IMG/VR virus record: IMGVR_UViG_3300032241_002495
Span: 1 to 35,698 of that record
Length of the DNA stretch: 35,698 nucleotides
Reading direction: 5' to 3' (one strand)
DNA from: a virus
Shown here: positions 20,654 through 35,139 of the stretch, piece after piece
How positions within the stretch are numbered: the stretch's first letter is position 1
How the letters are laid out: every line of letters starts with the position of its first letter
The notes under the pieces: generated by a model
Databases searched by the model: none
What the model was told of the DNA's origin: nothing
Seen by the model: the letters and a program-made list of their open reading frames with translations, nothing else
Position numbers and translations under genes: made by a program

Positions 20654-20668
20654 CTCCTCATTTAGGAG
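20654..20668 (-). promoter_or_regulatory. Hairpin that can cover the ribosome site of the 20644 gene
   Basis: On the minus strand CTCCT (20668-20664) can pair with the ribosome site AGGAG (20658-20654) across a 5-base loop. The late promoter ends directly before CTCCT, so a transcript starting about seven bases downstream lacks the covering arm. The stem is only 5 bp. Confidence 0.5.
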
Positions 20669-20676
20669 TATTTATA
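20669..20676 (-). promoter_or_regulatory. T4-type late promoter (TATAAATA)
   Basis: Exact octamer on the minus strand, 24 bases before the start of the 19727-20644 gene, placed between an upstream terminator and a ribosome-site hairpin. Confidence 0.8.
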
Positions 20677-20682
20677 AAGCAA

Positions 20683-20708
20683 ATAAGGCCGGATAACTCT
20701 GGCCTTAT
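20683..20708 (-). terminator. Terminator after the 20735-21082 gene
   Basis: An 8-bp stem (ATAAGGCC and GGCCTTAT) with a 10-base loop, followed on the minus strand by a T-rich stretch that runs into the late promoter at 20676. It would stop read-through from the 115-residue gene. Confidence 0.7.
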
Positions 20709-27527: not shown

Positions 27528-27535
27528 TATTTATA
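27528..27535 (-). promoter_or_regulatory. T4-type late promoter of the curli/FecR/cyclase unit
   Basis: Exact TATAAATA on the minus strand, 20 bases before the first membrane-protein gene. It directly follows the T-run of the gp41 terminator, cleanly separating early replication genes from this late unit. No other promoter of this quality was seen down to 21669. Confidence 0.85.
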
Positions 27536-27559
27536 AAAAAAAGGTCCCGAAGGACCTTT
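27535..27559 (-). terminator. Terminator of the polymerase-uvsX-gp41 region
   Basis: On the minus strand an 8-bp stem (AAAGGTCC and GGACCTTT) closed by a TTCG tetraloop, then a T-run shared with the late promoter. It lies two bases after the gp41 stop. Confidence 0.92.
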
Positions 27560-32596: not shown

Positions 32597-33214
32597 ATGA
32601 GTTTAGTAGATTTACAAAAGAAAATTGGTGTAACTGCGGATGGTGCTTGGGGCCCTGGTACTCTAAAAGCTGCAGCAAAAGCATATGGATTCTCTCCTTC
32701 TAAGGCTGCTCACTTTTTTGGACAAACCGGCCATGAAACTGGTGGATTCAAGACATTCAGTGAAAATCTAAATTACTCTGCTGAAGGCCTAGTATCAATT
32801 TTCCATAAGTATTTCCCAGATGCCGCAGCAGCTGCTGCTTATGCTCGTCAACCAGAAAAGATCGCAAATAAAGTATATGCTGGTCGTATGGGAAATGGTC
32901 CAGAATCTTCAGGTGATGGTTGGAAGTATCGTGGACGTGGTGCTCTTCAACTTACAGGACACGACAACTATCTTGCATTCTCAAATTCAATTAATCGGCC
33001 AGATGTTATGTCTAATCCAGATCTAGTAGCTGGTGAGTTAGCATTTGATTCCGCTGGTTACTTTTTCCAAAAGAATGGACTATGGGAACTAGCAGACAAG
33101 GGAATTGGTGATGATATTATTCTTGCCATTACAAAGAAGATTAATGGTGGAACAATTGGTCTAGACGACCGCACGGCCAAGACTCACCAATATTATACTT
33201 GGCTTACTACTTAA
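32597..33214 (+). CDS. Endolysin, glycoside hydrolase family 19 (chitinase-like) fold
   Basis: A 205-residue lysozyme-like enzyme. Likely catalytic acid E47 lies in GQTGHETGGF (42-51), the second acid E56 in FSENLNYSAEGL (54-65), and the substrate-cleft block is YRGRGALQLTGHDNY (about 111-125). Phage GH19 enzymes cut peptidoglycan between the sugars. The first 22 residues (VDLQKKIGVTADGAWGPGTL) look like a shortened peptidoglycan-binding unit. There is no signal peptide, so a holin must release it. It is the only + strand gene after the capsid operon, with ribosome site AAAGGA, and its end overlaps the convergent ParB-like gene by eight bases. Confidence 0.92.
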   Translation: MSLVDLQKKIGVTADGAWGPGTLKAAAKAYGFSPSKAAHFFGQTGHETGGFKTFSENLNYSAEGLVSIFHKYFPDAAAAAAYARQPEKIANKVYAGRMGNGPESSGDGWKYRGRGALQLTGHDNYLAFSNSINRPDVMSNPDLVAGELAFDSAGYFFQKNGLWELADKGIGDDIILAITKKINGGTIGLDDRTAKTHQYYTWLTT

Positions 33215-33677
33215 TTCTCATCTTTTTAATGTTCTTAGGGGAGAATTTACCTTTGGTGTTCTCCCCACCATTATAATACTTTACAACTGCCTTAAGCCAC
33301 TTTACTCCATGGTTGTATGCAAAACCTATTCTGTGGTTTCCATCCATAATAAAAGCCTTACCTTCTTTATCAACTCCAATTGTAATTGGATTAACTACAT
33401 TATGAAAATCATGAGGCTTTTTAATTACTTGAATGAGTAATTCAGCTTGTGGCGTATTAGTATGAGTGCGATTACGCTCTTCTCCATCCGCCCCCGGAAT
33501 CTTAATTAACTTTTTTACTGGAAGCTTAATTGGTTTTGAAAAATGCGCGGTAACTTCTCCAACTAAACCTTTTGACTTTGAATCGTCTTTTTTAGATATT
33601 TTGAAATCTAGGTTTGGCGGAATATTTCCTTTTACTAATTTACATTTTTCTTCTAAATATTCAGAAAAAGATTCCAT
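33207..33677 (-). CDS. ParB/sulfiredoxin-like domain protein
   Basis: A 156-residue protein starting at ATG 33677 (GGAG upstream; the earlier TTG at 33689 is rejected). The N-terminus MESFSEYLEEK resembles the capsid-targeting-like starts seen elsewhere here. The C-terminal half has the ParB-type core: ITIGVDKEGKAFIMDGNHRI (about 98-117), then GFAYNHGVKWLKAVVKYYNG. In ParB and sulfiredoxin folds this DGxHR segment binds a nucleotide. Whether it is a nuclease, CTPase or ADP-ribosylation-type enzyme cannot be told. It is preceded by a late promoter buried in a terminator. Confidence 0.75.
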   Translation of the reverse strand: MESFSEYLEEKCKLVKGNIPPNLDFKISKKDDSKSKGLVGEVTAHFSKPIKLPVKKLIKIPGADGEERNRTHTNTPQAELLIQVIKKPHDFHNVVNPITIGVDKEGKAFIMDGNHRIGFAYNHGVKWLKAVVKYYNGGENTKGKFSPKNIKKMRIK

Positions 33678-33691
33678 TGCCGACTCCAAAA

Positions 33692-33719
33692 AAATAGGGG
33701 GAATTGCTTCCCCCTATTT
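33692..33719 (-). terminator. 12-bp terminator hairpin overlapping a late promoter
   Basis: The arms AAATAGGGGGAA (33692-33703) and TTCCCCCTATTT (33708-33719) pair perfectly around TTGC. On the minus strand seven T residues follow, so it ends the Hsp20 transcript. The plus-strand side is T-rich too and may stop endolysin read-through. Confidence 0.9.
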
Positions 33720-33722
33720 ATA
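33715..33722 (-). promoter_or_regulatory. T4-type late promoter overlapping the terminator arm
   Basis: Exact TATAAATA on the minus strand, 37 bases before the ParB-like start. Five of its bases belong to the 5' arm of the terminator hairpin, so a transcript started here would not form that hairpin. Confidence 0.8.
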
Positions 33723-33726
33723 ATTT

Positions 33727-33831
33727 TTATTTACCAGCAATGCATGCCACTAAAGCGACACTCTGTAAAACAAAGAGCATTGCAAATAAGCCTGAATAAA
33801 CAATCTTATTAATTTTATCTGCGTACAACAT
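33727..33831 (-). CDS. Small membrane peptide (34 aa)
   Basis: A short frame from ATG 33831, one base after the hsp20 stop, to TAA at 33727. The product begins MLYADKINKIVYSGLFAMLF and ends VLQSVALVACIAGK: a basic head and one membrane helix (about 12-32). Its placement immediately after hsp20 and before the terminator supports a coupled gene. No family recognised; a lysis or membrane-stress role would be speculation. Confidence 0.55.
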   Translation of the reverse strand: MLYADKINKIVYSGLFAMLFVLQSVALVACIAGK

Positions 33832-33832
33832 T

Positions 33833-34300
33833 TTACTTCTTCTTTTCTGTATGAGAATCTTCAATATCAATCTTTCGCGGCTTCTTTGATTCTGGAATAA
33901 TGGCTTCTAGCCAAATCTTAAGCATTCCATTAATCATATCAGCACTTTGAATCTCTACATTATCAGCAAGTGTAAATGTACGAGTAAATGCACGTTCAGA
34001 AATTCCCTTATAAAGATAATTGTTTTCAGTTGAATCTTTTTCAACATTTCCTTTAATAAGGAGCTTTTGATCTTCTAGAGTAATTTCTAGATCTTGCTTA
34101 CCAAAACCAGCAATTGCCATTTCTACGACGTACTTATTTTCGTCTACTTTCTTGATATTATATGGAGGATACTTTGAAACTACCTCAGCGGTCTGGGTAG
34201 CTAGATCTTGCATCTTTTTGAAATGCTGATCAACTCCAATAAAATACTTATCAAACTTTGCTAGATCAGCAAATGTGTGGTCAAACTTCCATGTAGTCAT
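33833..34300 (-). CDS. hsp20: Small heat shock protein (Hsp20/IbpA type)
   Basis: A 155-residue chaperone with an alpha-crystallin domain (about 45-142): YPPYNIKKVDENKYVVEMAI, GFGKQDLEITLEDQKLLIKG, ISERAFTRTFTLADNVEIQS, and the conserved strand NGMLKIWLEAIIPE. A C-terminal I-x-I type tail (RKIDI) is present. Hsp20 genes are widespread in T4-like marine phages and are thought to help virion protein folding. It has a TAGGAG ribosome site and a late promoter, so it is made with the structural proteins. Confidence 0.95.
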   Translation of the reverse strand: MTTWKFDHTFADLAKFDKYFIGVDQHFKKMQDLATQTAEVVSKYPPYNIKKVDENKYVVEMAIAGFGKQDLEITLEDQKLLIKGNVEKDSTENNYLYKGISERAFTRTFTLADNVEIQSADMINGMLKIWLEAIIPESKKPRKIDIEDSHTEKKK

Positions 34301-34328
34301 ATGATTTCTCCTATTAAGCGAGCAATAA

Positions 34329-34361
34329 AATAGTACCAGCCCGTTAGGCGCTGGTACTATT
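34329..34361 (-). terminator. 12-bp terminator hairpin adjoining a late promoter
   Basis: Arms AATAGTACCAGC (34329-34340) and GCTGGTACTATT (34350-34361) pair perfectly around a 9-base loop; on the minus strand it continues TTTTATTG. It ends the upstream coiled-protein transcript. Confidence 0.85.
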
Positions 34362-34368
34362 ATTTATA
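34361..34368 (-). promoter_or_regulatory. T4-type late promoter of hsp20
   Basis: Exact TATAAATA on the minus strand touching the base of the terminator hairpin. Initiation about seven bases downstream would fall inside the 5' arm, removing the terminator from the new RNA. Confidence 0.8.
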
Positions 34369-34391
34369 CTATAAAATGTAATTAATGTCAA

Positions 34392-34799
34392 TTAGGTATT
34401 TGCAGCAGCCTTTGGCTTTCTGCCGCGGCTCTTAACAATAGAAATTACTTGTGCTTTAACATTCTTTACTTCAGCAGCAACTGTTTCTACTTCTTGTTTT
34501 ACTTCATTTACTATAGCTGTGACTTCAGTTTCAACTTGCTTTACATCAGCTGTAATAATTTGTTCAATCTTTTGAACTTCTGTTTCTGCTTGTGCTACAT
34601 CAGCTGTAACTGCAGTTTCTGTTTGAGCAACATTTTCTTCAGCTGTAGATACTACATTTTCAATTGTAGTTGCAGCCTGTTCTACTGAGGTAACTACAGT
34701 ATTAGCATCTTGAGATACTGTATTTTCAACTGTAGTTGCAACTTGATTTACTTCATAAACTTTCTTTTTTAGAAATAGATTGAATAGAAAATCTAACAT
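34392..34799 (-). CDS. Val/Thr/Glu-rich helical repeat protein with AT-hook-like tail
   Basis: A 135-residue protein starting MLDFLFNLFLKKKVYEVNQV. The rest is an almost pure amphipathic helix made of degenerate 11- to 14-residue repeats such as TADVAQAETEVQKIEQIITA and ADVKQVETEVTAIVNEVKQE, reminiscent of apolipoprotein- or LEA-like helices. The end KSRGRKPKAAANT contains an AT-hook-like RGRKP. ATG 34799 follows the previous stop by one base. Function unknown; a membrane-associated or scaffold-like helix is plausible. Confidence 0.65.
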   Translation of the reverse strand: MLDFLFNLFLKKKVYEVNQVATTVENTVSQDANTVVTSVEQAATTIENVVSTAEENVAQTETAVTADVAQAETEVQKIEQIITADVKQVETEVTAIVNEVKQEVETVAAEVKNVKAQVISIVKSRGRKPKAAANT

Positions 34800-34800
34800 A

Positions 34801-35139
34801 TTATTGACTCTCATCTAAGAATTGTGGCTTTGGTTCTGCTTCTGGTTCTGGTTCTGGTTCTGGCTCAACTATTGGAGTTGGAGCTGGAGTTGGAATTTGT
34901 GGTAGTGATGCATCACGTTGAGGACCATTGACAGATAGACCGCCAAGTAAACCAACAAAAGCACCGATTACTGTATTGAAGGCTGGACCAATTAGAGCTA
35001 AAATATCTTTATTATCAATTTGCTCATTTGGTAAGAAAATTCCGATTAGTAGTACACCAATTACGGCAACCATAATACTAGCTAATACAATTACTGTTAC
35101 TCTTAAAATCCAATTAATTAACTTTTCTCTTGGGTCCAT
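34801..35139 (-). CDS. Two-helix membrane protein with Pro-Glu repeat tail (holin-like)
   Basis: A 112-residue protein with membrane helices at about 11-35 (ILRVTVIVLASIMVAVIGVL) and 47-70 (ALIGPAFNTVIGAFVGLLGG), and a cytoplasmic or periplasmic tail of Pro-Glu repeats (EPEPEPEPEAEPKP) encoded by short DNA repeats. Two helices and a charged tail fit a class II holin, and the window has no other clear one, but other membrane roles are possible. Ribosome site AAGGA. Confidence 0.65.
   Translation of the reverse strand: MDPREKLINWILRVTVIVLASIMVAVIGVLLIGIFLPNEQIDNKDILALIGPAFNTVIGAFVGLLGGLSVNGPQRDASLPQIPTPAPTPIVEPEPEPEPEAEPKPQFLDESQ

Follow-up and report, generated by a model that had tools for sequence, protein, structure and literature searches.

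Why should a T4-type late-promoter octamer, TATAAATA, adjoin a long hairpin at two places around the hsp20 gene of a phage, and does the combination both end transcription and restart it? The window, that is the whole 35,698-base IMG/VR record IMGVR_UViG_3300032241_002495, carries T4-like phage genes (NrdA, DNA polymerase, UvsX, helicase, gp21 and gp22), and all the features under discussion lie on its minus strand. The genes concerned follow one another along that strand in this order:

34392-34814, minus strand: gene upstream of hsp20
33833-34300, minus strand: hsp20, encoding a small heat-shock protein of 155 aa (PHROG 432, E 7.5e-42)
33727-33831, minus strand: 34-aa ORF with a hydrophobic stretch, beginning 1 nt past the hsp20 stop
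33207-33677, minus strand: gene of unknown function, 156 aa, downstream of the element at 33722

An endolysin gene is convergent with this series, approaching it from the other side. ORFs of 31-34 aa with a hydrophobic stretch also lie directly 3' of hsp20 in several relatives (L002, L004, L008 and L016), their sequences being little conserved, and in C48C1 and Mosig a short ORF of about 31-35 codons is annotated after hsp20. The protein encoded at 34392-34814 contains repeated A/V/E/T-rich segments and shares only 27% identity with its syntenic counterpart in L004. Comparisons were based on 80 viral loci related to the window's Hsp20; a search of genome contigs with the single protein for bacterial relatives of the phage Hsp20 returned none.

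Octamers and hairpins across the window

The octamer occurs on the minus strand at 33722-33715 and 34368-34361. Its overall number in the window, 10 against an expected 5.3, is unremarkable. Two of the ten, compared with 0.1 in dinucleotide shuffles, have a stem of at least 7 bp whose 5' arm begins upstream of the predicted start. Start sites are predicted throughout, either as the sixth base after the octamer by the T4 rule, in which the octamer occupies positions -13 to -6 (PMC1524935), or as the fifth by the sigma70 rule. The initial annotation had described both overlaps as late promoters built into perfect 12-bp terminators. Both are indeed real and above chance, but they proved to be two different kinds of element. 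The stem at 33692-33719 is a perfect 12 bp, the hairpin at 34329-34361 is of 12+2 bp with a bulge. On the minus strand, a terminator scan passes the former with just its shorter inner stem and fails the latter.

A compact element that ends and restarts transcription was also considered as a general scheme. Counted against shuffled sequence and in relatives, the overlap is enriched in the window yet not genome-wide. In G007, the 171,566-base contig holding the hsp20 relative L016, 2 of 24 octamers qualify, one strong case at its own hsp20 promoter and one with a weak 7-bp stem; in T4 the sole overlap is at gene e, the textbook case of a late promoter inside a ribosome-binding-site hairpin (PMC3014915). 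Since the counts in both genomes are this low, the overlap is no general design of these genomes, and a genome-wide octamer-hairpin scheme was rejected.

Two further sites on the same strand combine octamers with terminators:

27528-27559, minus strand: terminator (27559-27540), then TATAAATA (27535-27528) in its T-run, a tandem of ordinary arrangement
20654-20708, minus strand: terminator, TATAAATA (20676-20669) and a CUCCU pairing with the AGGAG Shine-Dalgarno, like T4 e/soc/I-TevI

The first had been put forward as a third case of the fused element. Its octamer does lie in the terminator T-run, but the hairpin arm is not overlapped and the site is an ordinary tandem such as T4 possesses, where 7 of 32 octamers follow a terminator in this way (1.2 expected). 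The same tandem is present in L095 and L099. At 20676, the predicted start falls 3' of the CUCCU arm, so that the Shine-Dalgarno is predicted to be hidden in read-through RNA only.

The octamer-hairpin element downstream of hsp20

The element preceding the 156-aa gene is composed as follows:

33715-33722, minus strand: TATAAATA, candidate late promoter of the 33207-33677 gene, predicted start 33709
33688-33719, minus strand: terminator-like hairpin, perfect 12 bp (AAATAGGGGGAA/TTCCCCCTATTT), with T-run; -18.4 kcal/mol, z -3.7
33675-33687, minus strand: ribosome-binding site GGAG (33687-33684) and ATG (33677), directly after the T-run; layout identical in L004

In the stem, 33719-33708 pair perfectly with 33703-33692, and the octamer overlaps the 5' arm by 5 nt. 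It is accompanied by no -35 match of 4/6 or better. The idea that the RNA start decides whether the hairpin forms finds support at this site: computed folding of read-through RNA yields -18.4 kcal/mol, RNA from the predicted start at 33709 cannot form the 33719-33692 hairpin, and the fusion is conserved in L004. This relative, whose DNA polymerase is 74% identical to that of the window and whose gene order is identical, has TATAAATAAGGGGGAGCAATCCCCCTTATTTTTTGGAG in the syntenic place, again with 12 bp and -18.4 kcal/mol and again leading into GGAG-ATG. The ORF behind it is 57% identical to the 33207-33677 protein; the latter has no PHROG match, and peptide patterns gave no relatives of its gene, the ortholog having been reached through synteny in L004. 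We consider a promoter-in-terminator mechanism at 33722 plausible.

A plainer origin would have both hairpins as ordinary, perhaps bidirectional, intrinsic terminators whose A/T-rich flanks read TATAAATA by chance, 33722 being no promoter. The scan reports the 12-pair stem of 33692-33719 on the plus strand only, which makes that strand terminator-like as well, and the GGGGGA following the 33722 octamer is atypical of late promoters, those of T4 usually being AT-rich just downstream (PMC2988020). Furthermore, a similar terminator, lacking the octamer, follows hsp20 in relatives in the range L005-L010 (L005, L006, L008 and L010). In these, however, the next gene apparently lies on the opposite strand, so that no same-strand gene would follow, whereas the window and L004 retain a perfect TATAAATA, the 12-bp stem and the ribosome-binding site with ATG, even though the proteins downstream are only 57% identical. 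A pattern search of virus contigs returned 25 distinct promoter-terminator-like elements with the octamer and 22 with the reversed octamer, which thus precedes such hairpins almost as often; this control is flawed in containing ATAAATA, itself late-promoter-like, and the fusion appears weakly enriched in virus contigs over it. Taken together, we regard plain terminators with a chance octamer as possible yet doubtful. Because the L005, L006, L008 and L010 terminators lack the octamer, the terminator was probably there already and its A-rich arm either acquired the octamer or lost it.

The pattern search also brought up this design in many marine T4-like contigs, 3' of the major capsid gene and ahead of the structural gene that follows it. 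In L346 (4196-4250), L348 (2074-2130) and about 15 similar contigs, a late octamer is followed by a GGGGGAGC/GCTCCCCC terminator, a T-run and GGAG-ATG, the hairpin arm beginning 2 nt past the octamer.

Promoter and leader of the hsp20 gene

Upstream of hsp20 the following features were identified:

34386-34391, minus strand: -35 element TTGACA of the hsp20 promoter, a 6/6 match 17 bp upstream of TATAAA
34361-34368, minus strand: TATAAATA, sigma70 -10 (TATAAA) and possible T4-type late octamer, predicted start 34356-34355
34329-34361, minus strand: hairpin I, with outer 6 bp, inner 6 bp, a bulged G at 34349 and CC-UAAC-GG
34308-34322, minus strand: hairpin II, CUCGCUUAAUAGGAG, with ROSE-type UYGCU/AGGA pairing over the hsp20 Shine-Dalgarno

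The octamer doubles as the -10 of a perfect consensus sigma70 promoter (TTGACA, 17 bp, TATAAA) and is followed by an AT-rich segment (ATAGTA). Most freshwater relatives carry TTGACA, TTGACT, TTTACA or TTGATT at the identical 17-bp spacing, and the -35 is kept also in those having TATATATA in place of the octamer. These phages probably use sigma70-like promoters, since G007 has 88 such sites compared to 46-57 in its shuffles. The initial label of late promoter holds in so far as the octamer is present at both sites, but with TTGACA exactly 17 bp upstream we would class the 34368 promoter as sigma70-type or dual rather than as an established late promoter.

The same leader is present upstream of hsp20 in a smaller pelagiphage, the 54-kb HTVC103P (L089), with a perfect TTGACA-17-TATAAT promoter, as if leader and hsp20 travel together. 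Cultured phages with the leader include Melnitz (EXVC044M), Mosig (EXVC030M), S-CRM01 and S-SM1. In the marine phages Melnitz and Mosig (L084 and L085) an extra hairpin, GGTAGTTT...AAACTACC and GGGGTTGT...ACAATCCCC respectively, ends right before the hsp20 late octamer.

The stem of hairpin I pairs 34361-34350 with 34340-34329 and continues past the bulged G into CC/GG, with a computed fold of -20.6 kcal/mol (z -5.8). It is not called by the terminator scan, the U-run there being moderate. The octamer touches the stem by one base, and the outer half, comprising that A and the next 5 nt, lies upstream of the predicted start. RNA from the 34368 promoter would thus retain the inner 6 bp and CC/GG, a 6+2-bp hairpin.

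This anatomy (stem, bulged G, C or CC, loop, G or GG, stem) recurs in nearly all leaders. The loop is usually of 3-4 nt (UUCG, UAA, UAAU, UAAC and others) and a linker of roughly 10-30 nt leads to CUYGCUU...AGGAG. Covariation was counted on the hairpins alone, because the variable linker is mis-registered when entire leaders are aligned with MAFFT. In the core of hairpin I, 96% of cells in 23 sequences are paired and 58 cells show two-sided changes, a result reached by 0 of 500 shuffles, and a pairing-based parser recognises the bulged-G hairpin in 98% of the leaders retained compared to 0.7% of their shuffles; the alignment rows were picked by this parser, which inflates the core-stem percentages. 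The outer helix was not required by the parser, and its 6 pairs are formed in all 13 aligned sequences (100%), with two-sided changes at 5 of the 6; none of 500 shuffles reached its pairing.

In the window's clade the stem is exactly 12 bp and extends back to the last A of the octamer, the predicted start dividing it 6+6. The predicted start is the first base of hairpin I in L034, L037 and L043; the majority of octamer-bearing marine leaders have the stem beginning at this base or up to 4 nt before it. The ROSE-like hsp20 leader also occurs without the outer half. Hairpin I is missing in the freshwater locus L009, and in about ten more distant marine loci a clear bulged-G hairpin is absent or the leader could not be parsed. 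A U-run follows the hairpin in L004, L015, L021, L026, L051, L069, L074 and L080, is weaker in the window, and is poor or lacking in L003 and L005-L008. In L016, the corresponding hairpin passes the terminator scan.

Folding of the outer 6 bp in read-through RNA appears to be selected. Since RNA from the hsp20 promoter lacks the outer arm, selection would act on RNA that enters from upstream, unless the inverted repeat has another use; where a U-run follows, the simplest reading is that hairpin I acts as a terminator. The proposal that a new start abolishes the hairpin therefore survives in part at 34368. The outer 6 bp are fully paired and changed on both sides at 5 positions of 6, but a 6+2-bp hairpin still forms in RNA started there, the octamer doubles as a sigma70 -10, the U-run is missing from several relatives, and the hairpin is part of a ROSE-like leader. 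The larger finding at 34368 would be this leader itself, a ROSE-type leader of a phage hsp20 with the promoter built onto its first hairpin.

ROSE elements have otherwise been known as bacterial switches, and the hsp20 leader looks like a ROSE-type RNA thermometer of a phage. It lies in the 5' UTR of a small heat-shock gene (hsp20, PHROG 432). Hairpin II sets UYGCU imperfectly opposite the Shine-Dalgarno with a bulged G, as CUCGCU...AGGAG at 34322-34308 and likewise in most relatives, and the two-hairpin arrangement is found in most distinct hsp20 leaders examined, from T4-like freshwater and marine phages alike. The U(U/C)GCU motif pairing with the Shine-Dalgarno defines ROSE, of which a short two-hairpin form occurs in Pseudomonas ibpA (PMC3669281). 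For comparison, the UYGCU..AGGA pattern accompanies 1 of 15 ORF starts with AGGA in the window, 2 of 69 in G007 and 0 of 102 in T4. The Rfam model ROSE_3 (RF02523) matches phage leaders at 38.2, 37.4, 37.3 and 34.1 bits (E 1e-4 to 6e-4) and L005, a freshwater relative with the window's spacer, at 27 bits, all below its gathering cut-off of 43 bits. Rfam at gathering thresholds finds nothing across the window, and ROSE_3 reports nothing for the window's own leader even at E 10; it is consequently the series of relatives, and no score of its own, that speaks for ROSE membership of this copy. The enterobacterial ibpA leader (ROSE_2, E 1.9e-22) has the same bulged-G hairpin upstream. Computed melting shows little opening for the window's leader and likewise for the known ibpA ROSE, and is uninformative on thermosensing.

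In passing, an enterobacterial ibpA gene was noticed together with its ROSE_2 element in L090 (MG065691, Campylobacter phage A11a, labelled UNVERIFIED), a record that therefore probably includes host or contaminant DNA.

The hairpins might instead form a protein-binding or mRNA-stabilising structure, hairpin I being a 5' stabiliser or repressor site and the Shine-Dalgarno pairing incidental. Hairpin I is the more conserved and more stable part of the leader, its bulged G is invariant, and in marine leaders it begins at the predicted 5' end or a few nt upstream; a stable 5' hairpin has, moreover, been suggested to protect Pseudomonas ibpA mRNA (PMC3669281). We nevertheless judge this reading unlikely, given that UYGCU/AGGAG with a bulged G defines ROSE, lies over the hsp20 Shine-Dalgarno and is rare at other ORF starts, and that the ROSE_3 model matches several phage leaders. 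Less likely still is a main hsp20 RNA that begins further upstream, with the full 12-bp stem as a normal and hence conserved part of the leader: covariation is as strong in the outer pairs as in the inner and the upstream gene on the same strand makes read-through RNA plausible, but the stem base coincides exactly with an intact and conserved TTGACA-17-TATAAA, and the stem begins at the predicted start in L034, L037 and L043 and within 4 nt of it in most marine leaders.

A joint reading and its known counterparts

We favour, with fair though not high confidence, a joint reading in which a promoter is fused to a ROSE-type hsp20 thermometer at one site and a late octamer sits on the terminator of the hsp20 operon at the other. 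At the first, a sigma70 promoter whose -10 is the late octamer, giving overlapping early and late promoters, would start RNA in the middle of the 12-bp stem. The hsp20 mRNA would then open with hairpin I in its 6+2-bp form with the bulged G; by analogy, this hairpin may lend 5' stability and support folding, and the weak UYGCU/AGGAG hairpin II would conceal the Shine-Dalgarno until warming. RNA from upstream would add the outer 6 bp to form the 12-bp hairpin, which could terminate read-through where a U-run is present. At the second site, the intrinsic terminator closing the hsp20 operon would bear a late octamer on the 5' arm, which is A-rich; RNA reading through would fold and halt, and RNA started at the octamer, having no such arm, would continue into the ribosome-binding site. 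The structures, covariation, synteny, conservation and promoter match are shown by computation; start sites, termination and thermosensing are inferred.

More tentatively, T4-like phages may possess an hsp20 ROSE of their own in which the RNA start sets the jobs of a single stem, the 12-bp form terminating read-through RNA, the half stem capping and protecting promoter-started mRNA and the adjoining hairpin opening translation on warming. If so, viruses of abundant aquatic bacteria would tune a chaperone to temperature by RNA alone. The putative promoter-in-terminator at 33722 would likewise extend the T4 rule that the RNA start decides hairpin formation from translation to termination.

Among known systems, the short ROSE of Pseudomonas ibpA (PMC3669281) resembles the phage leader in its two hairpins, the stable 5' one and the 3' one with U(U/C)GCU/Shine-Dalgarno pairing, and in preceding a small heat-shock gene. 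Thermosensing by the phage leader would follow by analogy with ROSE. Unlike Pseudomonas ibpA and ROSE_3, the leader belongs to phages of bacteria, has a promoter -10/late octamer at the stem base, gains in one clade 6 bp of hairpin I upstream of the predicted start, and scores below the Rfam cut-off. The hsp20 promoter recalls RB49 and S-PM2, for which early promoters overlapping late ones have been proposed (PMC2984593): these too, being phages without MotA, combine a late octamer and an early sigma70-type promoter at the same gene. Here, unlike there, octamer and -10 are one and the same element, and a structured leader is attached to it.

The tandem at 27528 and the terminator upstream of 20676 are akin to the terminator-late-promoter tandems of T4, in which hairpin arm and octamer share no bases, and the 20676 promoter itself resembles the classical T4 e/soc type. 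In T4 e, soc, 49 and I-TevI, a late promoter lies in the 5' arm of a hairpin that hides the ribosome-binding site (PMC3014915, PMC2988022). As at those genes, the 5' arm at 33722 lies upstream of the predicted start, so that the inhibitory hairpin belongs to upstream RNA and octamer-started RNA lacks the arm; at 34368 only the outer half of the arm does, and RNA started there keeps a hairpin. The difference is that the hairpin at 33722 is predicted to end transcription rather than to hide a ribosome-binding site.
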